A stretch of 33,190 bases of DNA from Candidatus Methanofastidiosia archaeon (GTDB taxonomy: Archaea; Methanobacteriota_B; Thermococci; Methanofastidiosales; NM3), in NCBI GenBank assembly GCA_016930445.1, contig JAFGGT010000084.1, positions 1 to 33,190 on the forward strand, read 5' to 3'. A program made the position numbers and the translations under genes. Shown in pieces: positions 2,303 through 29,707 of the stretch. The notes beneath the pieces are model-generated. The model saw only the letters and a program-made list of their open reading frames with translations, ran no database searches and was not told where the DNA came from. Within the stretch, counting starts at the first letter, position 1, and each line of letters opens with the position of its first letter.

Positions 2303-4714
2303 ATGGTAGATAACATTATCCCGGTGAACATAGAGGACGAGATGAAGGAGTCCTATATGAATTACGCCATGAGCGTAATAGTGAGCAGGGCTCTTCCAGA
2401 TGTCAGGGACGGATTGAAACCCGTGCAGAGAAGGGTGCTCTATTCCATGTTCGAGTCTGGGATACTCTCTAACAAGCCCCATAAGAAATCCGCCCGTGTG
2501 GTGGGTGACGTCCTTGGTAAATATCACCCTCATAGCGATACTGCGGTCTATGACACTCTGGCCAGGATGGCGCAGAACTTCTCGATGAGGTACATGCTCA
2601 TCGATGGCCAAGGCAACTTCGGTTCCGTGGATGGCGACTCCCCTGCTGCCATGAGGTACACTGAGGCCAGGATGTCAAAGATCTCCGAGGAGATGCTTCA
2701 AGATATCAACAAGGAAACGGTATCGTTTATGCCAAACTATGACAACTCCCTGATGGAGCCCATGGTGCTGCCCTCAAAGATGCCGAACCTACTTGTGAAC
2801 GGCGGATCAGGCATAGCTGTGGGAATGGCGACAAAGATACCTCCTCACAACATTAGCGAGATCGTAGAGGGTATCGTAGCGATAATCGATGATAGGGAGA
2901 TGGACGACCTTGACCTGTTCCAGATCATACGGGGCCCTGACTTCCCCACTGGCGCGACCATCTATGGCGCAGAGGGGATCATATCTGGCTACAGGACCGG
3001 CAGGGGGAGCATAAAGATCAGGGCCAAGGTAGAGATGGACGAGACTAGCCAAGGGCCAAGGCTCATAGTCAAGGAGATACCATACGAGGTCAACAAGACG
3101 AATCTGATAGAGCAGATAGCAGAACTGGTAAAGGACAAGAAGATCGTTGGTATAAGGGATTTGAGAGATGAATCCGACAGAAGCGGGATGAGAATAGTCA
3201 TAGAACTAAAGAAAGAGGCCAACACTGATGTCATACTCAATCAGCTGTACAAGCACACGAACATGCAGACAACGTTCGCCTTCAACATGCTCGCCCTTGT
3301 TGACAACAAGCCCGAACTACTGGGCCTGAGAAGGATTATAGACCTGTTTCTCGAGCATCGCTTCATAGTCGTTAGGAACAGAACGGCATTCGACCTCGAC
3401 AAGGCCTTGAAGAGGGCTCACATACTAGACGGATTGATAATAGCCCTTGACAACATTGACGAGATCATAAGGATAATCAAGTCGGCCTCCAAACCAGAGG
3501 ACGCCAAAGACTCCCTCATCTCTACATTCGAGCTCAGCCCTGAACAGGCCCAAGCCATATTGGACATGCGCCTATCAAGGCTGACAAGCCTCGAACAGGA
3601 CAAGATAAGGAACGAGCTCAAGGAGCTAAGGGAAAAGATCGATGACCTGAGGGACGTCCTTGCAAAGGACGCGAGGGTCTATGACATAATAAAGGAAGAG
3701 CTCCTAGAGATGAAGGAAAAGTATGGTGATGAGAGAAGGACAGAGATAGAGTTCGAAGGCATAGAGTTCGAGGATGAGGACCTCATACCCTCTGAAGATG
3801 TCGTGATCACCCTGTCCCATGAAGGTTACACTAAGAGGATCCCAGTGGACACATACAGGATCCAAAGGAGAGGCGGAGTAGGAATAGTCGGGACCGGTAC
3901 GAAGGAAACAGACTTCATAGAGCACATCATAGTTACGAACACCCACAACTACATCCTTTTCTTCACGAACAAGGGCAAGGTGTACTGGAAGAAGGCATAC
4001 CAGGTCCCACAGGGAGGAAGGCTTTCCAAGGGCAACAATGTGGTAAATCTTCTAAATATAGAGCCTGGTGAGATGATCTCAGCGTTCATTCCGATAAAGG
4101 AGTTCGATCCGAACAAGTACCTGTTCTTCTCAACAAAGAAAGGACTTGTCAAGAAGACCCCACTCAGTGCTTTCTCCCACCCAAGGTCTGGCGGAATAAT
4201 CGCCATGACTCTAAACAAGGACGATGAGCTCATAAAGGTAAGGCTGACCAATGGCGAGAGCAACATTATCCTGGGCACAGAAAAGGGGAAGGCAATAAAG
4301 TTCAACGAGAATGACGTCCGGCCAATGGGCAGGGGCGCTATCGGTGTGAAGGGCATAGGTCTTTCAAAGAACGACAATGTCATAGGCATGGACATAGCCA
4401 CCGATGATGTAGAGATTTTTACCATAACCGAGAACGGTTATGGGAAGCAGACTGAGATATCGCAATATCCCCTCACTAGAAGGGGCGGCAAGGGCGTCGT
4501 CAACATAAAGACGGGAGGAAGGAACGGAAAGGCCGTTGGCATAAGGACCGTCAAGAAGGGGGATGAACTGATGCTTGTAAGCAACGAGGGCATCATCATC
4601 AGGCCGAATCTGGAAGATGTGCCATCAATCGGAAGGAACACCCAGGGCGTCATCATCATGAAGACGAGGCCAGGGGACAAGGTCGGTGCATTGGCAAGGT
4701 TCTCTCTCGACTAA
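2303..4714 (+). CDS. gyrA: DNA gyrase subunit A
   Basis: GyrA is the breakage-reunion subunit of the type IIA topoisomerase that introduces negative supercoils together with GyrB, which is not in this window. At 803 residues it has typical length. The N-terminus has the expected sequence ([20 protein letters not shown] at 21-40), and the catalytic tyrosine is Y119 in AAMRYTEAR. The C-terminal beta-pinwheel contains repeated RGG-type blades, and the GyrA box is QRRGGVG at 521-527. That box argues for gyrase over ParC-type topoisomerase IV, although its last position before glycine is valine where the classical box has lysine. Bacterial-type gyrase is known in several euryarchaeal lineages, including Thermoplasmata. 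The gene follows the polymerase gene by 167 bases, with its own promoter-like sequence. Confidence 0.96.
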
Positions 4715-4837
4715 AAAGCGACATACTTGAGCAGGTATTGACCCGCCTGAGTAAATTATCTTTCATCATCCATTTTTAGTGAGCGGACAGCTCAATATCT
4801 CTTTCACATTGTTGGCAAACTAAAAGCATCTTGAGAA

Positions 4838-4914
4838 TGGCGGGCTCGCCGGGATTCGAACCCGGGATATCAAGGTCCGAAGCCTTGCGCCCTATCCTGC
4901 TAGACTACGAGCCC
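4838..4914 (-). tRNA. tRNA-Arg (anticodon UCG), CCA encoded
   Basis: The reverse complement folds as a full cloverleaf. The acceptor stem GGGCTCG pairs with CGAGCCC. The anticodon stem CAAGG/CCTTG encloses the loop CTTCGGA, giving anticodon TCG, and the T-loop is TTCGAAT. The discriminator is G and the 3' CCA is encoded at 4838-4840, unlike the other tRNAs in the window. The gene lies between the 3' end of gyrA and the convergently placed reductase gene. The 120 bases between gyrA and this tRNA hold nothing else I could identify. Confidence 0.95.
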
Positions 4915-4957
4915 ATGCTAATAAGAAATCGCTGTTTATAAAGATTTGTGATTGACA

Positions 4958-6301
4958 TCATACCATATAGGCCAGATCTGAAGTGTTAGTCGGGAATGCC
5001 CAAGGTATCTCCTTGAGCTCCCTTGCAGGCATCTTCGCCTTGATGGCCAGGGCAAACACGTTGATGAGGTCCCCTGCCCGAGGACATATCAGGTGCGCTC
5101 CCAGGATGTGATCGTGCGCCTTGTCCTTGATCACCTTGGAGTAGGCGTTTCCCATACCGATGTGGCGCGATGAGAACCAGCTGGACATATCCATCTCCTT
5201 GACGACATAGTCGAGCCCCTCGGCCTTAGCCTGGCCCTCTGTAAGCCCCACAGAGGCCATCTCGGGCATCGTGAAGAGCACTGATGGTGTAACTGAATAG
5301 TCCATCTCCAACTTATTGCCATGGAGGATGTTATTTCCTGCAATTATACCCTCGTGCTCGGCAAGCGCTTTCAGCATTGGTCTTCCCTGCACCACGTCGC
5401 CAGCAGCGTACACATTTGGGTTGGATGTGCTTTGAAGGAAGGAGTTGACGATAACGCCCTTGCTGCTATGGTCCACGTTCGCATTGTCAAGGGCAAGGGC
5501 ATCCAGTTCTGGAACGCGCCCAGCGCCATGAACGGCGCAATCCGCCTCGCTATATAGAAATTCCCTGTTCTTCGTCGACTTGACCATGACCCCTTTCTCA
5601 TTACTCTCTATCGAGGCTACCTGGGAGTCAAGTATGACCTCAATTCCCAGTGCTTTCGTGGCGTCCAGAAGCCTTTTGACTACGGCCCCATCAAAACCGG
5701 GAAGCGGGTTTGGACCCTTATGTATGATCTTCACTTCCGCCCCTGCCGATGCCGCAACATGGGAGAACTCGAACGATATGTAGCCGCCGCCGACGAAGAT
5801 GATGCTCTCAGGGAGCTTGTCAAGCTCCATGAAATCCTCGCTTGTCAGGAGATGCCCCTCACCAGGGATGTTCAATTTTCTTGGCACTGAACCGCTTGCC
5901 ACGAGAAAATACCTAGAGCTCAAGGCCTCTTCCCCAACGTACAAGCTATCCGGGCCCCTAAAAGTTGCAACGCCGGAATACGTGTCTATACCGTTCCTCT
6001 TGTAATAGTGCATCCTTTTCTCTGGTATCAGATCTGTAAATGACCTCTTGAATCTAATTAAGCTTCCCCAGTCAAATTCCAGATCCGGCCCGAACATTCC
6101 AAGCCCTTGCATCCTTTTTGCATGCGCCAAGGTGGAAGTCGCTCCCACAAGCACCTTTTTCGGCGCACATCCCCTGAGCGCACATGTGCCGCCATACGGC
6201 CTAAAATCTGCTATCGCGACGCGCATCCCCCCAGAGCTGCACACAAATGCGGCATTAGTGCCTGCGGTACCTGTTCCAACTATGACAAGGTCGTAATCCA
6301 T
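4958..6301 (-). CDS. NAD(P)/FAD-dependent disulfide reductase-like protein
   Basis: This is a 447-residue flavoprotein of the class I pyridine-nucleotide-disulfide oxidoreductase family (glutathione, mercuric and dihydrolipoamide reductases). It begins with an FAD-binding VIVGTGTAGTNAA. The redox-active pair is C40/C45 in GGTCALRGCAPKK. A central NAD(P) fold starts at FVGGGYISFEF, and a second FAD motif ends in YAAGDV. The dimer domain ends FPTNTSDLAYMV, so the catalytic His of the usual HPTxxE signature is Phe and the Glu is Asp. The substrate is therefore unlikely to be ordinary glutathione or lipoamide and I cannot name it. I chose the ATG at 6301; an upstream in-frame TTG at 6310 is possible. 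A TATA-like element about 35 bases before the ATG suggests a leaderless or near-leaderless transcript. Confidence 0.88.
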   Translation of the reverse strand: MDYDLVIVGTGTAGTNAAFVCSSGGMRVAIADFRPYGGTCALRGCAPKKVLVGATSTLAHAKRMQGLGMFGPDLEFDWGSLIRFKRSFTDLIPEKRMHYYKRNGIDTYSGVATFRGPDSLYVGEEALSSRYFLVASGSVPRKLNIPGEGHLLTSEDFMELDKLPESIIFVGGGYISFEFSHVAASAGAEVKIIHKGPNPLPGFDGAVVKRLLDATKALGIEVILDSQVASIESNEKGVMVKSTKNREFLYSEADCAVHGAGRVPELDALALDNANVDHSSKGVIVNSFLQSTSNPNVYAAGDVVQGRPMLKALAEHEGIIAGNNILHGNKLEMDYSVTPSVLFTMPEMASVGLTEGQAKAEGLDYVVKEMDMSSWFSSRHIGMGNAYSKVIKDKAHDHILGAHLICPRAGDLINVFALAIKAKMPARELKEIPWAFPTNTSDLAYMV

Positions 6302-7146: not shown

Positions 7147-8070
7147 CTAATCCCTGAGCCTCTTCCCAGTTATTGATATGAAGACGTCCTCAAGAGTGGG
7201 TTCCACAGATGATATGGACTTTATCGGCCTGTTTGAAAGCTTTGTTGCTATGTCCAGAAGCAGCTTGTCCCTGTCATCGATGTAGAGTTTCAGCATTCCC
7301 TTGTCATAGAGCGCCTTGGTAACTCCATCCACAGACTCCACATCCTCTATGAGCCTCTCATCGAACTCTATCTGGATCTCCAGTATGTCCTGCCCCTTGA
7401 GCTTTCTCTTTAGATTTCTTGGGGTGTCTATGGCCTGTATCTTTCCCTCATCGATTATCGCGATCCTGTTGCAAAGGTAGTCCGCCTCTTCCATGTAGTG
7501 CGTTGTGAGAAATATCGTCATGCCCTCGGCGTTGATCCTTTTGATGAAGTCCCAGATCATCCTTCGTGCCTGTGGGTCCATGCCGGTCGTAGGTTCGTCC
7601 ATGAAGAGCACATCGGGTTTGTGCAGTAGTGCCAATATGACATTGAGCCTCTGCTTCATGCCACCTGAATAGTTCTTCACTAGGTCATCCTTCCTCTTCA
7701 GCAGGCCCATGGCATCCAACAGCTCATCAGACTTTTCCTTGATGACATTTCTTGGAACATTGTAAAGAGAGCCGTAGAGATATAGATTCTGGCTAGCTGT
7801 CAGAAGGTCGTTCAGTGAAAGCTCCTGTGGCACTACCCCTATCTTTTCTCTGATCTCCTTGGCGTTCTTGATATCAATGCCACACACCCTGGCATTGCCA
7901 GAACTTTTTCTCAACTGGCATGTCAACATGTTCACCGTAGTGCTCTTACCGGCCCCATTGGGGCCAAGGAAGCCAAAGATCTCCCCTTTCTTTATATCGA
8001 AGGATATCTCGTCTACGGCGGTCAGCATACCGAACTGTTTTACAAGGCCGTCTACTTCGACTATGTTCAT
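7147..8070 (-). CDS. ABC-2 type exporter ATP-binding protein (DrrA-like)
   Basis: This is the 307-residue ATPase of a two-component exporter. It has Walker A GPNGAGKST at 36-44, the ABC signature YSGGMKQR at 134-141 and Walker B VLFMDEP at 154-160, followed by TTGMD and an H-loop in TTHYMEEAD. The C-terminal 90 residues are the extra domain seen in daunorubicin-resistance-type (DrrA) ATPases. Its ATG overlaps the stop codon of the upstream permease gene by four bases, so the two are translationally coupled. The exported substrate cannot be read from the sequence; lipids, drugs and peptides are all known for this class. Confidence 0.94.
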   Translation of the reverse strand: MNIVEVDGLVKQFGMLTAVDEISFDIKKGEIFGFLGPNGAGKSTTVNMLTCQLRKSSGNARVCGIDIKNAKEIREKIGVVPQELSLNDLLTASQNLYLYGSLYNVPRNVIKEKSDELLDAMGLLKRKDDLVKNYSGGMKQRLNVILALLHKPDVLFMDEPTTGMDPQARRMIWDFIKRINAEGMTIFLTTHYMEEADYLCNRIAIIDEGKIQAIDTPRNLKRKLKGQDILEIQIEFDERLIEDVESVDGVTKALYDKGMLKLYIDDRDKLLLDIATKLSNRPIKSISSVEPTLEDVFISITGKRLRD

Positions 8071-18266: not shown

Positions 18267-18944
18267 ATGCTAAAGGACATCAGGGCCAAACAGCACAAAG
18301 GATTTGATTGCACATCTGTAGATGAGGTGGTGGCAGTCGAGAGCCCATTCACCATAAGGTGCATGGGATATGAGTTCAGGGGATTCGCAACGCCTATCGA
18401 GCTCAAGGAGCTATGTATAGGCCATCTTGCCACCCAGGGCATAATAGGCCGCATGGAAGATATAGGGAAGCTGGATGTAATAGTCGAGGATAATGGATTT
18501 ACCCTATGGGCATCCATCAATGCTCATCCATTCGTATTGAAAGGAGGAATGGGCATAAGCCTAGATCCAGACGACATCTACAAGATGAACGACTATGTCA
18601 GGGAGAACGCAGAGCTCTTCGATAAATCCGGCGCCCTGCACTACGCCTATGTTTTCGACACAAAAGGCAATATCCAATGCAACGCCTATGACATTGGCAG
18701 GATGAACGCCATCGACAAGGTCGTGGGGAAATGCCTACAGATGCGATTGGACCTAAACGACAAGATAATATACACTACGGGCAGGATTGCCACCAGGACT
18801 GTCGAAAAGGCGATAAGGGCTCATATACCTGCCATCATCTCGAAGGCGCCTCCAATGTACGAGGCCATTGAGCTGGCAAAGGAGCGTGGGATAACGCTCA
18901 TCGGTTTCTCAAGGGGAAGGAGATATAACGATTACACAGGATGA
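18267..18944 (+). CDS. fdhD: FdhD-like formate dehydrogenase accessory protein, CxxC motif absent
   Basis: FdhD proteins transfer sulfur to the molybdenum cofactor of formate dehydrogenase. This 225-residue copy has the fold signatures ELCIGHLATQGII at 48-60, YDIGRMNAIDKVVG at 141-154, TTGRIATRTVEKA near 171 and the C-terminal ITLIGFSRGRRYNDYTG. The central loop, where the catalytic CxxC of the E. coli protein would be expected (about residues 83-100), reads without any cysteine. The only cysteines are C15, C32, C50, C138 and C156, none as CxxC. It may use another cysteine, act as a cofactor-binding chaperone only, or be a diverged paralogue. It overlaps mobA by ATGA and converges on the fdhA operon. 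Confidence 0.85.
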   Translation: MLKDIRAKQHKGFDCTSVDEVVAVESPFTIRCMGYEFRGFATPIELKELCIGHLATQGIIGRMEDIGKLDVIVEDNGFTLWASINAHPFVLKGGMGISLDPDDIYKMNDYVRENAELFDKSGALHYAYVFDTKGNIQCNAYDIGRMNAIDKVVGKCLQMRLDLNDKIIYTTGRIATRTVEKAIRAHIPAIISKAPPMYEAIELAKERGITLIGFSRGRRYNDYTG

Positions 18945-19507
18945 CCAAGATGGATATCAGCATAGCGATACTATGTGGAGGGAGATCGAGGAGGTTTGGA
19001 ACGGATAAGACACTCTTCGAATATAAGGGGAAACCGCTCTATAGGCACCTCTATGACAAGCTATCAAAGCTCTCCGATGACATATTCATACAATGTGGAA
19101 AGAAGGATAGTTCGCTCTATGGGGTGAAATGCCACAATGACGATTACCTAGACCTTGGCCCTATAGGGGGCATATATTCTGCCCTCAAGAGCTCCCGGCA
19201 TAATAGGACATTCGTTGTCGGATGCGACATGCCAAACATTGAAGCATCATTCGTGGAGCTCCTTTCTAGCTATGATGCGGATATCGTGGTCCCTGTATGG
19301 GAAAATGGCTACTACGAGCCGCTCAGTGCCGTATATTCTAAGAAGATAGTCCCATATCTGGAATATAACATAGTGACTGGGAATCTGAAGATATCACAGA
19401 TATTCGAAGAAAATGATGTTAAAAAAATAAGTATAGAATCCCTGATATCTCAGGGACTCATCGACAAATTCACGTTCAAGAATGTCAACAGGCCTGATGA
19501 CATTTGA
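18941..19507 (+). CDS. mobA: Molybdenum cofactor guanylyltransferase
   Basis: This 188-residue nucleotidyltransferase links GMP to molybdopterin to form the guanine dinucleotide cofactor used by formate dehydrogenases. It has the nucleotide loop AILCGGRSRRFGTDK near residues 9-23, the LGPIGGIYSALKSS block near 72-85 and the metal-binding VVGCDMPN near 92-99. The first glycine-rich loop has LCGG where LAGG is usual. The start overlaps the fdhD stop by four bases. Position next to fdhA, on the converging strand, fits maturation of that enzyme. Confidence 0.92.
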   Translation: MTKMDISIAILCGGRSRRFGTDKTLFEYKGKPLYRHLYDKLSKLSDDIFIQCGKKDSSLYGVKCHNDDYLDLGPIGGIYSALKSSRHNRTFVVGCDMPNIEASFVELLSSYDADIVVPVWENGYYEPLSAVYSKKIVPYLEYNIVTGNLKISQIFEENDVKKISIESLISQGLIDKFTFKNVNRPDDI

Positions 19508-20349: not shown

Positions 20350-22401
20350 TCATTCACCAATTGTCTCTATTTTACATGCACATACCTTGAATTCAGGTAT
20401 CTTCGCTATTGGATCTAAAGCGGGATTTGTCAGCATGTTCGCAGCGCATTCGTTGAAGTGGAACGGAATGAACACAGTCTTCAGCGGCACCTTGCGCGTC
20501 ACGTAGGCAGGGATGTCTATTGTTCCTCTCCTCGTGCTTACCTTGACCTTTTCCCCATCCTTTATTCCCAGTTCCTCCGCATCCTGGGGATTTATCTCGA
20601 CATATCCTGTCGGCACCTCTTTGTTAAGCTTCTCAGAGCGCCTTGTCATGGTCCCTGTATGGAAGTGGAACAGGATACGCCCAGTAGTCAGGGTGAACGG
20701 GTATTTTTCATCAGGCAGCTCTGCAGGAGGTTTGTATTCGACCGCAAAGAAATGGCCCGGGCCGCGCGAACATTTGTCCTTGTGCAGGAAGACGGTCCCG
20801 GCATGCTCGGCATTCGGACATGGCCATTGCAAATAGCCAAGTTCATCGAGCCTGTCGTACGTTATCCCACCATAGATGGGCGTCAGGGATGCTATCTCGT
20901 CCTGTATCTCCTTCGGAGACTTGAATTCGAATCCCTTGGAACCCATTCTTTGGGCAAGTTCGCATATTATCTTCCAGTCCGGCCTTGAGTCGCCTATGGG
21001 TTCAATGGCCTTCCTGACCCTCTGAACACGCCTGTCCGTTGCAGTGAAGGTCCCATCCTTCTCTAGGAACGAAGTCCCTGGAAGAACCACATCGGCAAGG
21101 GCTGCAGTCTCGGTCACGAAGAGGTCCTGTACGACCAGAAAGTCGAGATTCTCCAGGGCTTCCTTGACATGTGTTATGTCAGGGTCGGAGATCATGGGAT
21201 TCTCACCCATGATGTAGATGCATTTGAGATTGCCCTTGTGGGCCTCGTTCATCATCTCTACAACGGTGAGACCGATGTTGTCGGGTATCTTCTCGGCCAT
21301 TCCCCACGCCTTCTCGAACTTCTCCCTGAAATCAGGATTCACGACTGCCTGATATCCGGGGAAGACGTTCGGAAGAGCGCCCAGGTCGCATGCGCCCTGC
21401 ACGTTGTTCTGCCCCCTGAGGGGGTTGACCCCCGTGCTCGGCTTGCCCAGATTCCCTGTGACCATCGAAAGGTTGGCACAGGACTTGACGTTGTCGACGC
21501 CGGTGGTATGCTGCGTTATCCCCATGCTGTATATTATTGAGGCGCTATCTGCACCTGCGTACATCCTTGCCGCCTTGACGAGGTCTTCCTTCGGAATGCC
21601 TGTGATCTCCTCCACCCTCTCGGGAGTGTAATCCTTCACCAGCTCCTTGAGCTCCTCAAAGTTCTCTGTCCTAGTCGTTATGAACTCCTCGTCTGCCAGT
21701 CCTTCTTCTATTATGACGTGTATAAATCCGTTGATCCATGCCACGTCCGTTCCAGGTCTCTGTCTCAGGTGCAGGTCGGCGAACTTTGAAAGCTGTATCG
21801 CCCTTGGGTCTATGAGGATGATCTTTGCCCCATTCTCCTTTGCCTTGAATATCCTGGACCCTATCAAAGGATGCTGCTCTGTTGTGTTCGAGCCTGTTAT
21901 TAGGATGCAATCCGCCTCTTCGACCTCGGGAGTGCTGTTGGTCATAGCGCCGCTGCCAAATGCCGCAGCCAGCCCTGCCACTGTGGAGGCATGGCACAAT
22001 CTTGCACAATGGTCCACGTTGTTCGTCACTATGACGCTTCTGGCGAACTTTTGCATCAGGTAGTTCTCCTCGTTGGTGGTCTTTGCAGAGGACAATAGTC
22101 CAAGTGCATTCGCTCCGTGGGTCCCCTTGATGTCCTTGAACTTGGAGGCTATGAGCCCATAGGCCTCATCCCAAGAGGCTTCCCTGAACTTTCCATTCTC
22201 CTTGATCAAAGGCGTCTTCAGCCGGTCCCCGCTATATACAAAGTCCACCGCGTTCCATCCCTTGATGCAAAGCTTTCCCTGGCTTATGGGATCCTCCTTG
22301 CACGGAAGTACATCCTTGGCCACGCCATCAATGACTTCTATGTAGTACTTGCACCCGCAACCACAATATGGGCAAGTCGTCAAAACTGTCTCATATTCCA
22401 T
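20350..22401 (-). CDS. fdhA: Formate dehydrogenase catalytic subunit (molybdopterin)
   Basis: This 683-residue member of the molybdopterin oxidoreductase family oxidises formate to CO2 or the reverse. The N-terminal [4Fe-4S] site is C10, C13, C17 and C45 (CPYCGCGC, then KLCIKGW). The active-site region VDHCARLCHAS places C136 where E. coli FdhF has selenocysteine, followed by H137, so this is a Cys-type enzyme. The GSGAMTNS motif and the C-terminal cofactor-cap domain (TTGRILFHFHTGTMTRR near 585) are present. No Tat signal is seen, so it is cytoplasmic. Its ATG directly abuts the stop of the FdhB-like gene. Tungsten versus molybdenum cannot be told. Confidence 0.95.
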   Translation of the reverse strand: MEYETVLTTCPYCGCGCKYYIEVIDGVAKDVLPCKEDPISQGKLCIKGWNAVDFVYSGDRLKTPLIKENGKFREASWDEAYGLIASKFKDIKGTHGANALGLLSSAKTTNEENYLMQKFARSVIVTNNVDHCARLCHASTVAGLAAAFGSGAMTNSTPEVEEADCILITGSNTTEQHPLIGSRIFKAKENGAKIILIDPRAIQLSKFADLHLRQRPGTDVAWINGFIHVIIEEGLADEEFITTRTENFEELKELVKDYTPERVEEITGIPKEDLVKAARMYAGADSASIIYSMGITQHTTGVDNVKSCANLSMVTGNLGKPSTGVNPLRGQNNVQGACDLGALPNVFPGYQAVVNPDFREKFEKAWGMAEKIPDNIGLTVVEMMNEAHKGNLKCIYIMGENPMISDPDITHVKEALENLDFLVVQDLFVTETAALADVVLPGTSFLEKDGTFTATDRRVQRVRKAIEPIGDSRPDWKIICELAQRMGSKGFEFKSPKEIQDEIASLTPIYGGITYDRLDELGYLQWPCPNAEHAGTVFLHKDKCSRGPGHFFAVEYKPPAELPDEKYPFTLTTGRILFHFHTGTMTRRSEKLNKEVPTGYVEINPQDAEELGIKDGEKVKVSTRRGTIDIPAYVTRKVPLKTVFIPFHFNECAANMLTNPALDPIAKIPEFKVCACKIETIGE

Positions 22402-23178
22402 CTAGAACTCCTCCTTCGTATAGAGCGGATTGACTTCCTCAGTATTTCCGACCACATAATCGAAAAGCTCCTTCATGTCATCGCGGAGCAATCTGTTAAT
22501 GGTCATTAGCGGTATTCCAGCCGGACATGCGGATTCACACTCACCACAACCGACACACTTCCCAGCAAGGTGGAAGGCCCTGATGAGGTGGTATACGGGG
22601 AAGTCCGGAGGCAGCCTGCCCTTCTTCAGCCATAGCTCGTTCTCAAGCTCGCAGTCCTTGCAGAAGCACATCTGGCATATGTTCCTACAACCATAGCACT
22701 TGTTGCACTTCTCGAACTGCTTCTTCCAGAATTCCAGCTTCTCGGCGGTGGACATCCTCTTGTAGTCTTCGAACGCATCCCCGAGCTCAAGCTCCTCCAG
22801 CTTCTCGCCTATGAGGTCCTCGCAGCTAGGGTAAGGGACTGAGCAGTTGCAATCCTTGGCGGTCTCTTCGTCACATGCGATGCCGATTATACTCAGCTTG
22901 TCCATGTCGATCTGATTCCTCTTCGCCATCTCAAGGAGGGCCCTCTCATCACAGCCCCGGCAAAGTATCGCTATCTTGTATTCCGGGTCCATCTTGTGCA
23001 TCTTCATGGCTAGTGTGGCCAACGGATAGTGCGGTGAGAGCCTCAATGATGAGAGGTCGTCCCCTTTCTTGAAGACGCACGGGGTCGTCATTCCAAGGAC
23101 GTCCTTGAGAGCGATGACGGCAGTTACCTCGCCGGAATCGAGCATCTCAGCTATCCTCTTTCGTACCTCGTCCTCCAT
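22402..23178 (-). CDS. fdhB: FdhB-like iron-sulfur subunit
   Basis: This 258-residue electron-transfer protein lies between fdhA and mvhD. Residues 1-115 form a domain with CRGCDER at C73-C76, resembling part of the F420-hydrogenase/dehydrogenase beta family but far shorter than methanogen FdhB (about 400 residues). I see no flavin or F420 site. A cysteine-dense middle has C158, C161, C164, C168, C171, C173 and C176. A ferredoxin motif follows at C208, C211, C214 and C218-P. It probably passes electrons from FdhA to MvhD/HdrA. Similar proteins accompany Hdr-type complexes in sulfate reducers, as I recall. Start and stop touch both neighbours. Confidence 0.82.
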   Translation of the reverse strand: MEDEVRKRIAEMLDSGEVTAVIALKDVLGMTTPCVFKKGDDLSSLRLSPHYPLATLAMKMHKMDPEYKIAILCRGCDERALLEMAKRNQIDMDKLSIIGIACDEETAKDCNCSVPYPSCEDLIGEKLEELELGDAFEDYKRMSTAEKLEFWKKQFEKCNKCYGCRNICQMCFCKDCELENELWLKKGRLPPDFPVYHLIRAFHLAGKCVGCGECESACPAGIPLMTINRLLRDDMKELFDYVVGNTEEVNPLYTKEEF

Positions 23179-23609
23179 CAGATCGCCTCCCTTGCGATCT
23201 CCCTGAGCGGGCTTGGACCAAGCTTTTTGATATCGTCACGGAGTTCCTTCATGGTCTTTGCGAACTCTTCTCCCTCTGCTGCAGATATCCATTCCAGCCT
23301 CAGCCTTTCGGGCTCGATGCCTATATGCTCGATGAGCCTCTTTAGAAGGTCTATCCTCTTCTTCGTTCTGTAATTCCCATCGACGTAGTGACAGTCGCCC
23401 GGATGACAGCCGCCTATGAAAACGGCGTCGGCACCGGTCTGGAACGCCTTTATTATCATCTCTGCGTTTATCCTCGAAGAGCACATCACCCTTATGACGC
23501 GTATGTTCGCGGGATAATGCATACGAGACGTTCCTGCCATGTCTGCTCCTGCGTAGCAACACCAGTTGCATAGGAATCCCACAATCTTAGGTTCCCATTC
23601 ATCGGACAT
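23178..23609 (-). CDS. mvhD: MvhD/FlpD-type [2Fe-2S] linker subunit
   Basis: This 143-residue protein is the methyl-viologen-reducing hydrogenase delta subunit family member that docks hydrogenase or formate dehydrogenase onto HdrA. Cysteines likely to hold the [2Fe-2S] centre are among C14, C17, C18, C43, C68 and C73, in the motifs FLCNWCCYAGAD and GGCHPGDCHYVDGN. No hydrogenase gene is present here, so its partner is the adjacent formate dehydrogenase, as in formate-using methanogens. Its ATG abuts the hdrA stop, and its stop overlaps the FdhB-like start as TGATG. Confidence 0.95.
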   Translation of the reverse strand: MSDEWEPKIVGFLCNWCCYAGADMAGTSRMHYPANIRVIRVMCSSRINAEMIIKAFQTGADAVFIGGCHPGDCHYVDGNYRTKKRIDLLKRLIEHIGIEPERLRLEWISAAEGEEFAKTMKELRDDIKKLGPSPLREIAREAI

Positions 23610-25562
23610 TTAAAGCACCTCCAGAAGTTGAGCTATTATCTGATCGTTCGTGAAGTGATTCATCCTGATGGATCCCGAAGGACATGCGGCCGCACATGAA
23701 CCACAACCTTTGCAAAGCGCTGCATTGACCTTCATCACACCTTTCTCCTCATCGAACTCATGAGCTTCGAATGGGCATAGGAGCATACATGTCTTGCAGC
23801 CTACACAGGCATCCTCATCGACCACGGCTATGGTGGGCTCGGCGAAGATCTCGTCCTTGGAGAGAAGGTTCACCACATGGGACGCGGCACCAGAGGCTTG
23901 GGCCACTGTATCGGGTATGTCCTTTGGCCCCTGCGCTACGCCTGCAAGGAAGACGCCGTCTATCACCGTGTCGACAGGCCTCAGCTTTGGATGGGCCTCA
24001 AGGAAGAATCCATCGGAGCTGAGTGACAGGTGCAGAAGCTTTCCGATGCCCTCAGCAAGCGGATTAGGCGTAAGCCCGGTCCCGAGCACCACAAGGTCTG
24101 CCTCAAGCTCATATGGTTCCCCAAGGAGCGTGTCCTCGGCACGGACGAATAGCTTTCCATCCTGGCCATAGACCTCTGCGGCATTGCCGCGCCTGTACTT
24201 GATGCCTTCCTTCTGGACCCTCTCATAGAACTCCTCATATCCCTTTCCGAAGGCCCTCATGTCCGTGTACATGACGGTGATGTCCGCATCCGGTATCTTC
24301 TCCTTGAGCAGATGGGCCTGCTTCGCGATATACATGCAACAGACACGGGAACAGTATGCATTTCCCACTTTCTTGTCCCTTGAACCAACGCAGGATATGA
24401 ATACAATCCTCTTTGGCTCCTTTCCATTGATCTTGGGCTTTCCTCCTGTTGGGCCGGAAGGTGCGAATATCCTCTCTAGCTCGAGGCCTGTCATGACGTT
24501 GGGATACTTGTCATAGCAGTATTCGGGCTTGAGCTCTGCAGAGAACTCCTTGAATCCCGTTGCAACGACTATCGCTCCAACATCGAACTCGACGAACTCG
24601 GGCTTGTCATCGAACTTTATGGCGTCAGTAGTACAGACATCGGCACATTTGGGTGAAGTCCCGCATTTTCCGTGCTTGAGGAAGAGACATTTCTCGGGGT
24701 CTATAGTATACCTTAGCGGCACGGCCTGTGGAAATGGAACATATATGGCGCCCCTCTTGCCTAGCCCCATGTCGAACTCCGAGGCTATCCTCCCAGCAAG
24801 CCTGCACGCCTCCGCGCAACTTCCACAGCCCGTGCATTTTTCCATGTCCACATATCTTGGGTTCTTCTTGACCCTTACATGGAAATTGCCCACAGACCCA
24901 TCGATGCTCTCGACCTCGCTGTAGGTTAGAAGCTCTATGTTCGGATGCCTTGCGACATCCACCATCTTTGGCGTCAATATGCATGCGGCACAGTCAAGTG
25001 TGGGGAATGTCTTGTCAAATCTCGCCATGTGGCCTCCTATGGACGGTTCCTTCTCCACCAGGTAAACCTTGTATCCAGAATTAGCGATGTCAAGCGATGT
25101 CTGGATCCCTGCTATGCCGCCGCCGATGACCAATGCCTTTGGCACGACTGGCACACCCTGGCTTACCAATGGCTCAAGAAGGGATGCCCTTGCAACGGAG
25201 CTTTTCACCAGGTCGATGGCCTTCTTGGTGGCCTTCTCCCCGTCCAAATGGACCCAAGAGCACTGCTCCCTGATGTTCGACATCTCGAAACAGTATGGAT
25301 TCATGCCCGCATCGCTCACAGTTGCCCTGAAGGTAGGTTCGTGCATCCTTGGAGAACATGCCGCAACGACCACTGAGTCGAGCTGGTTCTCCTTTATGGC
25401 CTTCTTTATCATATCCTGTCCAGGGTCTGAGCACATGTATTGGTAATCCGCACATGCGACCACGCTAGGGATCTTCGATATCTCCTCGACGACCTTCTTT
25501 ACATCGACCGTGTTTGATATGTTGACACCGCAGTGACAAATAAATACACCTATTCTCTTCAT
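23610..25562 (-). CDS. hdrA: HdrA, flavin electron-bifurcating subunit
   Basis: This 650-residue FAD protein is the bifurcating centre of the soluble HdrABC complex. An N-terminal cysteine segment (ICHCGVNI, C9 and C11) is followed by the FAD-binding GGGIAG at 147-152. CAAC at 191-194 follows in the thioredoxin-reductase-like domain. A ferredoxin motif CTGCGSCAEAC lies near 242, then a CLFLKHGKCGTSPKCADVC block near 295. A second flavin motif (FLAGVAQGPKDIPDTV) is near 545. Two C-terminal clusters follow, CVGCKTCMLLCP and CKGCGSCAAACP, which would pass low-potential electrons to ferredoxin. It sits between hdrB and mvhD, in the standard order. Confidence 0.96.
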   Translation of the reverse strand: MKRIGVFICHCGVNISNTVDVKKVVEEISKIPSVVACADYQYMCSDPGQDMIKKAIKENQLDSVVVAACSPRMHEPTFRATVSDAGMNPYCFEMSNIREQCSWVHLDGEKATKKAIDLVKSSVARASLLEPLVSQGVPVVPKALVIGGGIAGIQTSLDIANSGYKVYLVEKEPSIGGHMARFDKTFPTLDCAACILTPKMVDVARHPNIELLTYSEVESIDGSVGNFHVRVKKNPRYVDMEKCTGCGSCAEACRLAGRIASEFDMGLGKRGAIYVPFPQAVPLRYTIDPEKCLFLKHGKCGTSPKCADVCTTDAIKFDDKPEFVEFDVGAIVVATGFKEFSAELKPEYCYDKYPNVMTGLELERIFAPSGPTGGKPKINGKEPKRIVFISCVGSRDKKVGNAYCSRVCCMYIAKQAHLLKEKIPDADITVMYTDMRAFGKGYEEFYERVQKEGIKYRRGNAAEVYGQDGKLFVRAEDTLLGEPYELEADLVVLGTGLTPNPLAEGIGKLLHLSLSSDGFFLEAHPKLRPVDTVIDGVFLAGVAQGPKDIPDTVAQASGAASHVVNLLSKDEIFAEPTIAVVDEDACVGCKTCMLLCPFEAHEFDEEKGVMKVNAALCKGCGSCAAACPSGSIRMNHFTNDQIIAQLLEVL

Positions 25563-25565
25563 GGA

Positions 25566-26441
25566 TCATTCTCCCCCCTTCTTGAGATCCTTGAGCTTCT
25601 TTTCAAGGTCGCGTGTCGATACCAGATGGGTGTGCAAAGCGAGATGCTTCGGCCTTATCCCAAATGCAAGCCCGAACAGCTGATTGAGGTGCAGTACAGG
25701 TATCTCGGTCGTCTTAAGCTTCTTTTGGCTCTGGTCGAACTGCATGTGGCAGAAGGAACAGATATTGACGATGGCGTCGACATTCGCATCCTTCATATTG
25801 TTCAGCTTGGTGTTGATTATCTTCAGTGACACATCCGGCTCGCCACTCATGACGCCTCCGCCTGCGCCGCAGCAGGTCAGGCCGTCCTTGAACGGGACCG
25901 CCTTGCAACCTGCAAGTCCCACCAGCTCATCGAGCAGTGTCGGCCTCTCAGAGTTCTCGCCTGTCACCGAGGATGGTTTAAGATAATGGCAGCCGTAATG
26001 GACAGCCACGTTGAGCCCCAGGTCTATCTCCTTGAGCTCCGCTATCTTTTCCTTGTAGTTCTTCAATATATCCACGAAATGTATTGGATGTACCTTTCCC
26101 TTGTACTCAGCATCTATCCTGCCAAGATGGTCGTTCACAAAGCCCATGAGGTCAGGGTCGTTCTTGAGGGCGTACCACACATTGTGGAGCGTACCGTAAC
26201 AACCTGAGCAGACGGTCATCGGATTTAGGCCATCCTTTTCAGACTGGGAAAGATTCCTGGCCCCCATCACCAGCCATGACGGCTTGTCATAGCATGCCAG
26301 CACTCCAGGCGGAGGACAACATGAATATTCATAGTCCCTCAGGCCTATTCCGAGCTTCTCGAAAACGATCCGAGTGGCCTTCTCTATCCCAGGATAAACG
26401 TTCTTTGCGATACAGCCTGGGAAGAATGCATATTCCTCCAT
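25566..26441 (-). CDS. hdrB: HdrB, catalytic disulfide reductase subunit
   Basis: This 291-residue protein has two CCG domains that hold the paired noncubane [4Fe-4S] clusters of heterodisulfide reductase. Ligands visible are C10, C41-C42, C78 and C81 in the first, and C151, C190-C191, C228 and C231 in the second (YGCHYLKPS, CCGAGGGV, CSFCHMQ). In methanogens the substrate is CoM-S-S-CoB; in other anaerobes an unknown disulfide or another acceptor is used. Nothing here decides which. Its ATG overlaps the hdrC stop by one base and its stop lies four bases from hdrA. Confidence 0.95.
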   Translation of the reverse strand: MEEYAFFPGCIAKNVYPGIEKATRIVFEKLGIGLRDYEYSCCPPPGVLACYDKPSWLVMGARNLSQSEKDGLNPMTVCSGCYGTLHNVWYALKNDPDLMGFVNDHLGRIDAEYKGKVHPIHFVDILKNYKEKIAELKEIDLGLNVAVHYGCHYLKPSSVTGENSERPTLLDELVGLAGCKAVPFKDGLTCCGAGGGVMSGEPDVSLKIINTKLNNMKDANVDAIVNICSFCHMQFDQSQKKLKTTEIPVLHLNQLFGLAFGIRPKHLALHTHLVSTRDLEKKLKDLKKGGE

Positions 26442-26926
26442 TATCTCAGGCCTCCCTTCTTGGTGATCTCAAGACCGTCGAGAAGCCTTTGGAACTTTTT
26501 AAGGGTCTCAGCATTCGTCGAAACATCGTATGCTTCTTTTTTAAGCCCTATTATGGCCCTGATCTTGGACACTTCTGGTGATAGCGGTTGGCCTGCCCCA
26601 GTATCGTAAAGGCTCTTGATAATGATCTTCGGAACGTCTGACATCGTCGGAAAGTACCCTTCCTCGACAGCCAGATTCCTTAGCTCTATTATCATGTCGG
26701 TAGTTTTTACTTCCTTAGGGCAACGTTCCTGACATGTAAAGCATGTTGTGCAATCCCACAGCTCTTCAGTCTTGATAACGTCCATGCCCATCCTTGCCAT
26801 GTGAATCAGTTTTCGCGTACGTAAACTGCATTCACGTCCGGAAGGGCAAGATCCCGTGCATCTGCCGCACTGGATACACGCGTATCCATTTCCGTCGATT
26901 AAGATTTCTTTAACTGATTTTCCCAT
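26441..26926 (-). CDS. hdrC: HdrC, ferredoxin-like subunit
   Basis: This 161-residue protein has two [4Fe-4S] motifs: C17-x2-C20-x2-C23-x3-C27-P and C59-x2-C62-x2-C65-x3-C69-P. It carries electrons between HdrA and HdrB. I chose the ATG at 26926 because GGTGGTC lies about nine bases before it and homologues begin near this point. An ATG at 26968 would add 14 residues and enlarge the overlap with the upstream gene. Even so it overlaps the amidotransferase-like gene by 17 bases in another frame, which implies translational coupling. Confidence 0.93.
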   Translation of the reverse strand: MGKSVKEILIDGNGYACIQCGRCTGSCPSGRECSLRTRKLIHMARMGMDVIKTEELWDCTTCFTCQERCPKEVKTTDMIIELRNLAVEEGYFPTMSDVPKIIIKSLYDTGAGQPLSPEVSKIRAIIGLKKEAYDVSTNAETLKKFQRLLDGLEITKKGGLR

Positions 26927-28076
26927 TAGACCACCAATTATTTCGTTTAAGGTTGAAGTAAGTGTCAAATAGACCTTTGGAGAGTTTTTTGGTAGCTTCT
27001 ATCAACATCTCGGCCTCTTTACTGGTGTCTTGCCCCCCTTTCGATAAGACACGTATCTCGGCCAGCAAGGAGTGTATCAGCCTCGCATTCGTTTCCAGCC
27101 CTTTAGGATCCTCTATGGGCAGAAGATCATACCTCTGCAAAGTCCTTATCGTCTTCCATGTCTCGTTCAGGAAGTAGATTATCTTCTCATCCTCCCAGAT
27201 CTTTTCCCCTATCTTCCAACGGAGATTGACGAGACCGCTGGATAGCACCCTGGCGGAGGAAAGCTCCCTCTTGATGATGCCCAGCCATTCGCCGAGATCA
27301 TCGCCGTGCAGAAGCACAATGTCACCTTTCTTTGCTGGACCGATGGCAAAAGGCTTGATCTTGCTCATTATGTCGTATAGAAACATGTTTGCCCTTGGGT
27401 AACTTGGGTGCTCGAAATGAGGCCCAAATAGGTATAGGCAGCCTCTGCCTACCGGCACCCTTATGCCAGCTGCATTGCCGACCATGGTCTTCTTCGCTGT
27501 ATCCTCCTCTACGAGATACAATGTCTTATCATCGAAGTCTACATAGTCTAGCAGCCTATTCTCTGCAGGAGCCATCATTGATGGACCGCCATATAGCGGT
27601 GCCTTGAAGCTCATGTCCTTGTTACCAACTTCCAAGGAACCCCTGACCGGGTGAAATACAAAACCGTCCTTGTATGGCACGATGTACTTGTACTTCATCC
27701 TGATCGCCTCTGGGGGGCGTTCAGAAAAATTGTTTATCGGGACCTCGGCAAAATTTAACCATGGCATTGGGTCATCGTTGAATATTATAGAAAGATAAGT
27801 GCCTGCACATACCCCAATATAAGTGCCACCGTTCTTGACAAACTGTCTTATTTTGTCAAGCCCCTCTTCCAGAAGCCCATCAGCAATCAGGAAGGGATCC
27901 CCTCCGGGCAATACCAAGCAATCGTAGTTACTTAGCTCACCGTTCTTTATGTCAGATTCATCCAGAAAATAAACCTCATTAAAATCTAGCGAATCAAAGG
28001 TCTTCACGAACCATATCCATGAGTAGGATGCCCCATGACCAATATATATGGCAATTTTCAGGTTCTCAGAGTCCAT
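26910..28076 (-). CDS. BPL_N-type glutamine-amidotransferase-like protein
   Basis: This 388-residue protein begins with a class I glutamine-amidotransferase-like domain of the type found at the N-terminus of eukaryotic biotin-protein ligases (BPL_N). The nucleophile elbow is C90 in YIGVCAGTYLS, and the His-x-Glu pair is H220/E222 in FGPHFEHP, so a complete triad is visible. Residues from about 245 onward form a helical, charged extension I do not recognise; no ligase domain is attached. The ATG at 28076 follows GGGGAG; a TTG at 28085 is possible. A TATA-like TTTTTTAAAATC lies about 30 bases upstream. It overlaps hdrC by 17 bases, making it the first gene of the Hdr-Fdh operon. Its reaction is unknown. 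Confidence 0.78.
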   Translation of the reverse strand: MDSENLKIAIYIGHGASYSWIWFVKTFDSLDFNEVYFLDESDIKNGELSNYDCLVLPGGDPFLIADGLLEEGLDKIRQFVKNGGTYIGVCAGTYLSIIFNDDPMPWLNFAEVPINNFSERPPEAIRMKYKYIVPYKDGFVFHPVRGSLEVGNKDMSFKAPLYGGPSMMAPAENRLLDYVDFDDKTLYLVEEDTAKKTMVGNAAGIRVPVGRGCLYLFGPHFEHPSYPRANMFLYDIMSKIKPFAIGPAKKGDIVLLHGDDLGEWLGIIKRELSSARVLSSGLVNLRWKIGEKIWEDEKIIYFLNETWKTIRTLQRYDLLPIEDPKGLETNARLIHSLLAEIRVLSKGGQDTSKEAEMLIEATKKLSKGLFDTYFNLKRNNWWSNGKIS

Positions 28077-28141: not shown

Positions 28142-29362
28142 CTACATCTTAAACGCATCAGCGTCGAAGTCAATGCCTGTCGATATGCTCGCAAGCTCTG
28201 CTAGTGTCTCGGCGTTCAAGGCCTCAGCCTTTGCAGCTAGGACTGGGCAGATGCCAGCGATGTATGCGGCCTCTGTTCTCTCGCTCTCTGGAGAGATCGG
28301 GCTGTATACGGCGTCAAACTTCTCTGCTTCTGAGGATTCAGCTAACTTCTCGAGGTCTGCAATCGCACCCTTGGCATCCTTAGCCTTTATCTTTGATGCT
28401 ATTGCCACTGGGTTCAGGCCAAGCCTGAATACTGCCTCGAGGACCTCGCCGGCCGCTTCTGGGTTGACCGCATTTCCAATTGCGGCAAATCCAATTGGGT
28501 CGGATACTAGCACTCCTGGATTCCATATGTCAGACATGGCCATGACACTGGGGTCCTCCCTGTACTTGAGATAGACCTTGTATGCCAGGGGGCTGTTGAA
28601 GTCTGCCTCTACCCTGTGCGTCTGCTTGGCTGCGGCGGCCTTGACGGCAGCCGGGATGTTCGCGTATGCTGCTGCGTCGAATCCCTTTGCGCTTCCGACC
28701 TGGGACACGACATCCTTGAACACTTCCTCGACCTTCTCGAGGAATCCTTCAGCATCGTCAACATCTAGTTCGCCCATACCTCTCATCGCTATTGCCTTGA
28801 GATTCTTCTCACCGAATATGGCGCCGAAACCGAATCTGTCCCCGTCTCCCCAATAGTTATTAATGACTTGGGCAGATGTGAGCTTGTTCTCTCCGGCCTT
28901 TCCTATGACAAGAAGCTGGATCCTGTCCTCTCCCTGTTCCTCTCTTATCGCATCAGTCGTCTGCCATGTGTCCTTGCCCCAGAGGGCGGTGGCATCCACG
29001 AAATCAGCTATCTCATCATGCAACCAAAGGTATGTTGGCTTCTCAGCCTTGTTCTTGACAACTACAAATGAATATCCTGTAAACTTAAGCTCTGCTCCAG
29101 CGTTCCAAGTGATCGGTGCGTGGGCTATCTTGCCCGTTACTGGGCTCTTTGCTGTAAGAACTCCAAGGCAGGAACCTGGAACCATAGTGCTGGTGAAAAG
29201 ACCGCTACCAAAAACGATCGGGTCTTCGTCCTTATACTTCTCATACAATGCAAGATTTAACTTTGCTCCGCCCACGTATTCTTTGACAAACTTCTCCTCG
29301 AGTTCGACTTCCTCTGCTTCCCCTGTGGCCAGATCCACTACAAGATAATATTCAGTATACAT
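28142..29362 (-). CDS. Shortened aldehyde:ferredoxin-oxidoreductase-like protein
   Basis: Residues 1-200 (from the ATG at 29362) match the N-terminal tungstopterin domain of aldehyde ferredoxin oxidoreductase. The features are YVGGAKLNL near 29, VPGSCLGVLTAKSPVTG near 61, AELKFTGYSFVVV near 89, LWGKDTW near 127 and DRFGFGAIFGEKNLKAI near 175. Typical AORs have about 600 residues; this has 406 with a compact alanine-rich second half ending in an AOR-like STGIDFDADAF. Only two cysteines exist (C65 and C372), so the four-cysteine cluster of AOR cannot form. C372 may match the last AOR cluster cysteine. It is probably an electron-transfer or pterin-binding subunit working with the adjacent ferredoxin. 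A TTG at 29371, with GGTGG before it, is an equally plausible start. Confidence 0.8.
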   Translation of the reverse strand: MYTEYYLVVDLATGEAEEVELEEKFVKEYVGGAKLNLALYEKYKDEDPIVFGSGLFTSTMVPGSCLGVLTAKSPVTGKIAHAPITWNAGAELKFTGYSFVVVKNKAEKPTYLWLHDEIADFVDATALWGKDTWQTTDAIREEQGEDRIQLLVIGKAGENKLTSAQVINNYWGDGDRFGFGAIFGEKNLKAIAMRGMGELDVDDAEGFLEKVEEVFKDVVSQVGSAKGFDAAAYANIPAAVKAAAAKQTHRVEADFNSPLAYKVYLKYREDPSVMAMSDIWNPGVLVSDPIGFAAIGNAVNPEAAGEVLEAVFRLGLNPVAIASKIKAKDAKGAIADLEKLAESSEAEKFDAVYSPISPESERTEAAYIAGICPVLAAKAEALNAETLAELASISTGIDFDADAFKM

Positions 29363-29371
29363 GTAATCCAA

Positions 29372-29707
29372 TTAGTCCACCTCTATTAAACATCCTGTTG
29401 GACAAAATCTAACGCAAAGCGCGTTCTTACATTTATCACATGGTTCTCTCATGAGGATAGGCTTTGCAGATGCGCCCGCTTCACTGTCAGAGGCTTCTCC
29501 CTCAGCTACGAATTTGGCTCCTTCTGGCCTACCTTCTATCATTCCGTCCTCTTCCTTTAGCATGAGACCGAAGTAGTTCCTGACTTCCTCACGGTACATC
29601 ATGATTGATGAGGACATCGTTGTGAAAACTTCATCCCTGTAGAAACTACAGGCCAATTCACATGCGCCGCAATTTATGCATTTTTCTGGTTCGACCTTAA
29701 TAGACAT
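29372..29707 (-). CDS. Two-cluster DmsB-type ferredoxin
   Basis: This 111-residue electron carrier has CINCGACELAC (C11, C14, C17, C21) and, after a 65-residue insertion, CDKCKNALCVRFCPTGC. The C-x2-C-x4-C-x3-C spacing of the second motif is that of DMSO-reductase B-type and AOR-associated ferredoxins. The insertion includes a flexible acidic and serine-rich linker (GEASDSEAGASAK). A strong Shine-Dalgarno AAGGAGGT precedes the ATG. Its stop directly abuts the possible TTG start of the AOR-like gene, so the two products are likely partners. It follows the HdrD-like gene by 29 bases. Confidence 0.9.
   Translation of the reverse strand: MSIKVEPEKCINCGACELACSFYRDEVFTTMSSSIMMYREEVRNYFGLMLKEEDGMIEGRPEGAKFVAEGEASDSEAGASAKPILMREPCDKCKNALCVRFCPTGCLIEVD

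Follow-up and report, generated by a model that had tools for sequence, protein, structure and literature searches.

The window, a 33,190-nucleotide stretch of DNA from a Candidatus Methanofastidiosia archaeon (contig JAFGGT010000084.1), encodes a short protein (sAOR) with the fold of aldehyde:ferredoxin oxidoreductase (AOR), a tungsten enzyme; it is probably a cofactor-free structural or docking subunit that belongs to a larger electron-transfer complex and carries its own two-cluster ferredoxin. The protein belongs to an old, widespread and apparently undescribed clade in archaea and bacteria. Further, and more tentatively, we suggest that this clade may represent a family of AOR-fold pseudoenzymes, in which a metal-free subunit docks a private ferredoxin onto GlcD/CCG proteins and joins HdrABC-formate dehydrogenase in archaea or quinone-side complexes in bacteria, an electron-transfer class that would so far have gone unrecognised.

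The short AOR gene and its clade

In the open reading frame list, sAOR is a real frame on the minus strand (Table 1), and translation most likely begins with the TTG at position 29371, which follows the ferredoxin stop codon directly (TAA TTG); the equivalent site reads TAA ATG in the four closest relatives. The start at 29362 given in a preliminary description of this DNA is therefore probably 9 bases short. Counted from the TTG, the only two cysteines of the protein are C68 and C375 (C65 and C372 in the earlier numbering), and the earlier estimate of about 200 missing residues agrees with a length of 409 aa against 605 aa in 1AOR. The parts of 1AOR absent from sAOR in the alignment are about 47-54, 250-268, 357-379, 395-416 and 430-481, and everything beyond about 524. 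Pfam AFOR_N (PF02730) matched residues 9-198 (E 9.8e-50, 169.5 bits, cut-off 29.8); no other Pfam family matched the window sAOR, and AFOR_C (PF01314, domains 2 and 3) gave no match to it even at E<=1. Across the sAOR family, AFOR_C was weakly matched by 25 of 30 members (best E 6e-6).

Table 1. Features of the sAOR locus, with positions in the window
Feature	Position	Strand	Basis or remark
sAOR, short AOR-fold protein, 409 aa	28142..29371	minus	Open reading frame list, AFOR_N match, fold, residue table
AFOR_N domain, residues 9-198	28778..29347	minus	Fold kept (predicted); R76->L, N93->P, R182->G (P. furiosus AOR numbering)
Former CxxCxxxC motif, now DFNSPLAY, residues 257-264	28580..28603	minus	C288->D, C291->S, C295->Y; gap-free alignment
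Codon of C375, equivalent of C494, sole remaining cluster ligand	28247..28249	minus	Alignment
Dedicated ferredoxin, 111 aa, 8 Cys (two [4Fe-4S] sites)	29372..29707	minus	Conserved in relatives
CCG-domain Fe-S protein (GlcF/TfrB/HdrD-like), 448 aa	29737..31083	minus	PF02754
GlcD-type FAD flavoprotein (FAD_binding_4), 476 aa	31080..32510	minus	PF01565 E 2e-31
BPL_N/glutaminase-like protein, 391 aa	26910..28085	minus	PF09825 E 1e-12; co-conserved downstream of sAOR
HdrC-like	26441..26968	minus	TIGR03290 E 3e-39, below its cut-off
HdrB-like	25566..26441	minus	Own reading of sequence; kept beside HdrC in relatives
HdrA (HdrA2-like)	23610..25562	minus	NF040770 E 5e-263, below its cut-off
MvhD-like	23178..23609	minus	Own reading of sequence, inference
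FdhB-like	22402..23178	minus	Named from its position; no match in NCBIfam
FdhA, formate dehydrogenase alpha subunit	20350..22401	minus	TIGR01591 E 2e-273, above its cut-off

When 60 related genomes were searched, we found four further genomes of the window sAOR's family with a full-length gene of 409-410 aa at 72-77% identity, and dN/dS in this family was 0.07-0.12 for the pairs with unsaturated synonymous sites, which indicates that sAOR is under purifying selection there. The preliminary description had argued for internal loss in a gene that is not broken, and both the low dN/dS and the length conserved among relatives support this; moreover, we looked for close relatives of full AOR length, with a deletion in the window alone, and all close relatives were equally short. 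A recent deletion or a pseudogene was excluded on the same grounds. Relative to AOR, domains and cluster ligands are indeed missing, as one would expect of an AOR gene in decay or of an artefact of assembly, but such an origin is extremely unlikely given the equal length and the identity across five genomes of the window's family, the dN/dS values, a start codon sitting right on the ferredoxin stop, and the occurrence of the clade in both archaea and bacteria.

The genome-contig scan returned ten sAOR relatives, including those of Methanomassiliicoccales, Theionarchaea and one deltaproteobacterium, all of them shorter than AOR, and the records nearest the window sAOR were labelled archaeon NM3, Methanomicrobia and Methanofastidiosia. 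A profile built from the sequences of ten-odd relatives matched the short AORs at E 1e-155 or better, against 1e-48 for the best full-length AOR of the same genomes. Counting profile matches at E 1e-60 or better, sAOR was present in 19 of 400 sampled genomes of the class containing the Methanomassiliicoccales relative and in 34 of 395 sampled genomes of the phylum of the deltaproteobacterial relative, and complete members were 362-500 aa long. When 48 short AORs and 15 full-length ones were placed in a maximum-likelihood tree, with the four cluster-ligand columns omitted, the short AORs were monophyletic (SH-aLRT 100), and the window protein shares the monophyly, the length range and the adjoining ferredoxin of the clade. 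Shortness and cysteine loss are two separate events: the former is ancestral to the clade, and the latter came later and recurrently.

Fold, tungstopterin site and cluster site

The AlphaFold2 model of sAOR, obtained with a 30-sequence alignment, had a pLDDT of 92.8 and a pTM of 0.91. A structure comparison with AOR and BamB had been proposed earlier; run on the predicted model, it gave Z 33.3 over 392 residues at 2.4 A for 1AOR and Z 30.5 for BamB (4Z3W), and sAOR is accordingly modelled as keeping the AOR fold. All seven of the listed structure matches were AOR-family enzymes, and Foldseek hits to other families, with E values no better than about 1e-3 and TM (query) <0.15, were noise. At residues 112-123 (window 29003-29038) we observed the block P..LWLHDEIAD, which shows no variation in alignment A1 and is unlike that of 1AOR (PVYIYIKDEHIE); it is probably a clade-specific interface or site.

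The cofactor residues were read from an alignment to 1AOR (P. furiosus AOR numbering) for 48 short AORs and 33 full-length controls. From general knowledge of the AOR structure, we take Arg76, Arg182, Asp338, Lys450 and Asp489 to have roles in the cofactor site. Main-chain Mg contacts are made at Asn93 and Ala183, and Thr243, Glu311, Tyr312, Glu313, Tyr427, His448 and Tyr452 lie around the tungsten (PMC12096430); roles of AOR/WOR cofactor residues were also taken from PMC13328260. Arg76, Asn93, Arg182, Ala183, Asp338, His448, Lys450 and Asp489 were absent, by replacement or deletion, from all 48 short AORs, and so was Thr243 (Ser in one). Among the 43 short AORs outside the window's family, E311 was kept in 1, E313 in 8 and Y312 in 2; over all 48, Glu311 was lost from every member but one and Glu313 from every member but 8. 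The full-length controls kept H448 in 33/33, E313 and E311 in 31/33 each, R182 in 28/33 and R76 (R or K) in 32/33. In the window sAOR, the residues surrounding the W-bis-pterin (T243, E313, Y427, H448, N93, R76 and others) are all replaced or deleted. The N-domain had been described as pterin-binding and well preserved: its fold is, in the predicted model (Z 33 to 1AOR), but its cofactor site is not, the ligand residues being gone across the short AORs. The bis-pterin ligands, whose retention was checked in the alignment as had been suggested, are not kept in sAOR, and a pterin-binding role is not supported for a protein whose clade has lost the tungstopterin residues almost throughout, while full-length controls keep most of them.

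One alternative is that sAOR is still an enzyme, which would hold another small ligand or substrate in the emptied interdomain pocket and work with the ferredoxin. Strong purifying selection is compatible with catalysis of another kind, and both the kept AOR fold and the clade-specific invariance of P112 and L115-D123 in alignment A1 (e.g. W116-L-H-D-E-I-A-D) would suit it; however, no conserved AOR catalytic residue set remains and the pocket-forming domains are partly deleted, so that we consider an enzymatic role unlikely and prefer a docking subunit.

At the cluster site, D257, S260 and Y264 align without gaps to the AOR ligands C288, C291 and C295, and C375 corresponds to C494 of P. furiosus AOR; therefore, the cluster cysteines were substituted and not deleted. 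As had been stated from the cysteine count, an AOR-type [4Fe-4S] cluster is not possible in the window sAOR, where the ligands now read D, S, Y, C. Sister short AORs carry CFGCPWPC or CFNCPYAC where the window has DFNSPLAY. C288, C291, C295 and C494 are all intact in 28 of 48 short AORs, including all Thermoplasmata-type members, and the full-length controls keep C291, C295 and C494 in 33/33 and C288 in 32/33. The cluster columns read DSYC or DNYC in the window's family (C494 kept), mostly CTTH in one bacterial group and (G/S/A)C(Y/A)D in another. On the sAOR tree, parsimony gives three changes for the cysteine losses, and at least two are forced by well-supported branches. The idea that cysteine loss was private to the window's family was dropped after the bacterial survey showed other losses.

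The four-cysteine sAORs might provide one additional cluster as a relay between the ferredoxin and its partner, with the cluster-less members, the window's included, using another path. The intact cysteines of the Thermoplasmata-type and other members, and their loss as a set, would be in keeping with such a relay, but the repeated losses, with close sister lineages differing, suggest that the cluster is inessential to the common function, and we regard the relay as quite improbable. An AOR cluster that is dispensable (still possible in 28/48) agrees with a scaffold that leaves redox work to the ferredoxin encoded next to it.

Ferredoxin partner and gene neighbourhood

The same 8-Cys ferredoxin was found directly before sAOR in 39 of the 39 loci examined, and this constant pairing bears out the earlier proposal that the two are dedicated partners. 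The ferredoxin has a conserved insert between its two cluster motifs (NYFGLMLK...GRPEG...KPILMREPC), and it is plausible that it supplies the clusters for sAOR. When both proteins were predicted as one fused chain, in which the intergenic TAA was read as Gly solely to join them, the pTM was 0.78 and the ferredoxin, at a pLDDT of about 25-50, had no confident placement.

The gene order in the window's family is GlcD, CCG, Fd, sAOR, BPL_N, HdrC, HdrB, HdrA, MvhD-like, FdhB-like and FdhA, and the order GlcD-CCG-Fd-sAOR-BPL_N-HdrC(-HdrB-HdrA) is kept in related archaeal genomes, in both cases as far as contigs reach. At 18267-19507, next to the end of the operon that encodes formate dehydrogenase, there are FdhD-like and MobA-like genes by our own reading. 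The BPL_N gene adjoins sAOR in Theionarchaea as well as in the window's family, and a BPL_N/glutaminase-like gene stands right after or near sAOR in the window and in loci L029-L032, L036, L119, L122-L127 and L129-L133.

In the deltaproteobacterial phylum, the sAOR loci contain a CCG gene in 16/18, a GlcD-type flavoprotein in 11/18 and BPL_N in 12/18. With 7-21 PF01565 genes per genome as the basis of the chance expectation, GlcD (PF01565) occurs within the 15-kb stretch at sAOR in 9 of 12 bacterial genomes against 0.48 expected (P 3e-11). In at least one bacterial locus (L124), Rieske, cytochrome b and cytochrome c-CCG genes follow, and L125 and L126 look alike. A GlcD-CCG-GlcD trio lies just before Fd-sAOR in L119, L120, L121, L128 and L134; the window, with a single GlcD gene and a single CCG gene, lacks the full set of two FAD subunits and one CCG subunit of the GlcDEF or 'Magic' trimer. 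By our own reading, L122-L127, L130 and L131 often have a GntR-type regulator, an aldehyde dehydrogenase or an ABC substrate-binding-like gene nearby, which are possible hints to the substrate.

In Methanomassiliicoccales-type loci, Fd-sAOR stands alone between aspartate carbamoyltransferase-like and nucleotide-kinase-like genes (own reading), and none of GlcD, CCG, BPL_N or Hdr was found near it in these genomes; therefore, the flavoprotein link is not universal. The Thermoplasmata-type loci L064-L076 and L078 have conserved pyrimidine-synthesis-like, TusA/DsrE-like and nucleotide-kinase-like neighbours, with no GlcD, CCG or BPL_N beside Fd-sAOR, and all keep the four cluster cysteines. In L037, a separate 88-aa frame (7363-7629) is almost a second copy of the C-terminal end (YVLGICP...) of the contig's short AOR, which lies at 3637-5244, and toxin-antitoxin-like genes stand between the two.

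The neighbourhood also bears on whether sAOR could be a pterin or W-pterin carrier or chaperone serving the cell's own full-length AORs or its formate dehydrogenase. Full-length-type AORs are present in the genome, and FdhA accompanies the FdhD-like and MobA-like genes in the window; however, the pterin, phosphate and Mg contacts are precisely the lost residues, the constant partner is a ferredoxin, and in the loci read we recognised no gene for cofactor maturation immediately next to sAOR. A carrier function is thus very unlikely.

For the docking subunit that we favour, the simplest reading is a scaffold: we propose that the tungstopterin site, together with some 100-240 residues of the catalytic domains, disappeared early from the sAOR clade, and that the fold, its chemistry gone, would hold the ferredoxin where AOR-type enzymes hand over electrons. 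In this archaeon, the chain would probably connect a GlcD-type flavoprotein and CCG protein with the ferredoxin on sAOR, the ferredoxin with an HdrC/HdrB/HdrA flavin hub, and this hub with MvhD and formate dehydrogenase; in bacteria, Rieske/cytochrome b/cytochrome c-CCG modules, or others on the quinone side, would take the place of the Hdr-formate dehydrogenase end. Physical binding, the direction of electron flow and the substrate of the sAOR complex are things we infer.

Comparison with known systems

The 2026 WOR classification defined large subunits by both N- and C-terminal domains, and very little variation of cofactor residues was reported for the AOR/WOR family (PMC13328260). The sAOR clade is a counter-example in which intermediate steps are visible: the fold is the same, the tungsten site is lost throughout and the cluster was lost several times. 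We found no description of a short or cofactor-free AOR clade in the open-access papers searched, and the withdrawn clades 24, 32, 37, 39 and 59 of the WOR tree (PMC13328260) could contain it. Genes for sAOR are likely annotated as aldehyde ferredoxin oxidoreductase, so that aldehyde metabolism and a requirement for tungsten would be predicted wrongly. The constant ferredoxin and the GlcD/CCG/Hdr neighbourhood offer directly testable complexes.

With AOR itself (WorL/AOR family, 1AOR, class I), sAOR shares AFOR_N, the overall fold (Z 33), the cysteine equivalent to C494 and a distant similarity in domains 2 and 3, but it is about 200 residues shorter, lacks the tungstopterin residues and has three of the four cluster cysteines replaced. 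BamBC of class II benzoyl-CoA reductase combines an AOR-fold subunit with a small Fe-S subunit, as Fd-sAOR would; however, BamB (4Z3W) is a full-length W enzyme of 652 residues, which sAOR is not. In class II WOR (WorL with ferredoxin-like WorS; e.g. PfASOR/WOR5, CbGOR), an AOR-fold subunit is likewise encoded with a ferredoxin-like small subunit, but WorS has four [4Fe-4S] clusters (PMC13328260) whereas the ferredoxin of sAOR, with eight conserved Cys and two clusters, is not a four-cluster small subunit, and WorL is catalytic whereas sAOR is without a cofactor site. AorABC of Aromatoleum (8C0Z) places AOR-fold subunits on a ferredoxin-like electron wire (precedent AorAB, PMC10413684), as proposed for sAOR, but AorB is catalytic with its cluster kept, and AorA has four clusters (PMC10413684). 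For anaerobic benzene activation, the candidates under discussion include FAD/Fe-S/FAD trimers ('Magic' flavoprotein; PMC13101534, PMC13416013), whose published descriptions include no AOR-like or ferredoxin subunit with the trimer. Compared by gene architecture only, the GlcDEF/'Magic' trimer has the same architecture as the trios of the five loci named above, so that some sAOR loci adjoin FAD/Fe-S/FAD trios of the kind discussed for that reaction.
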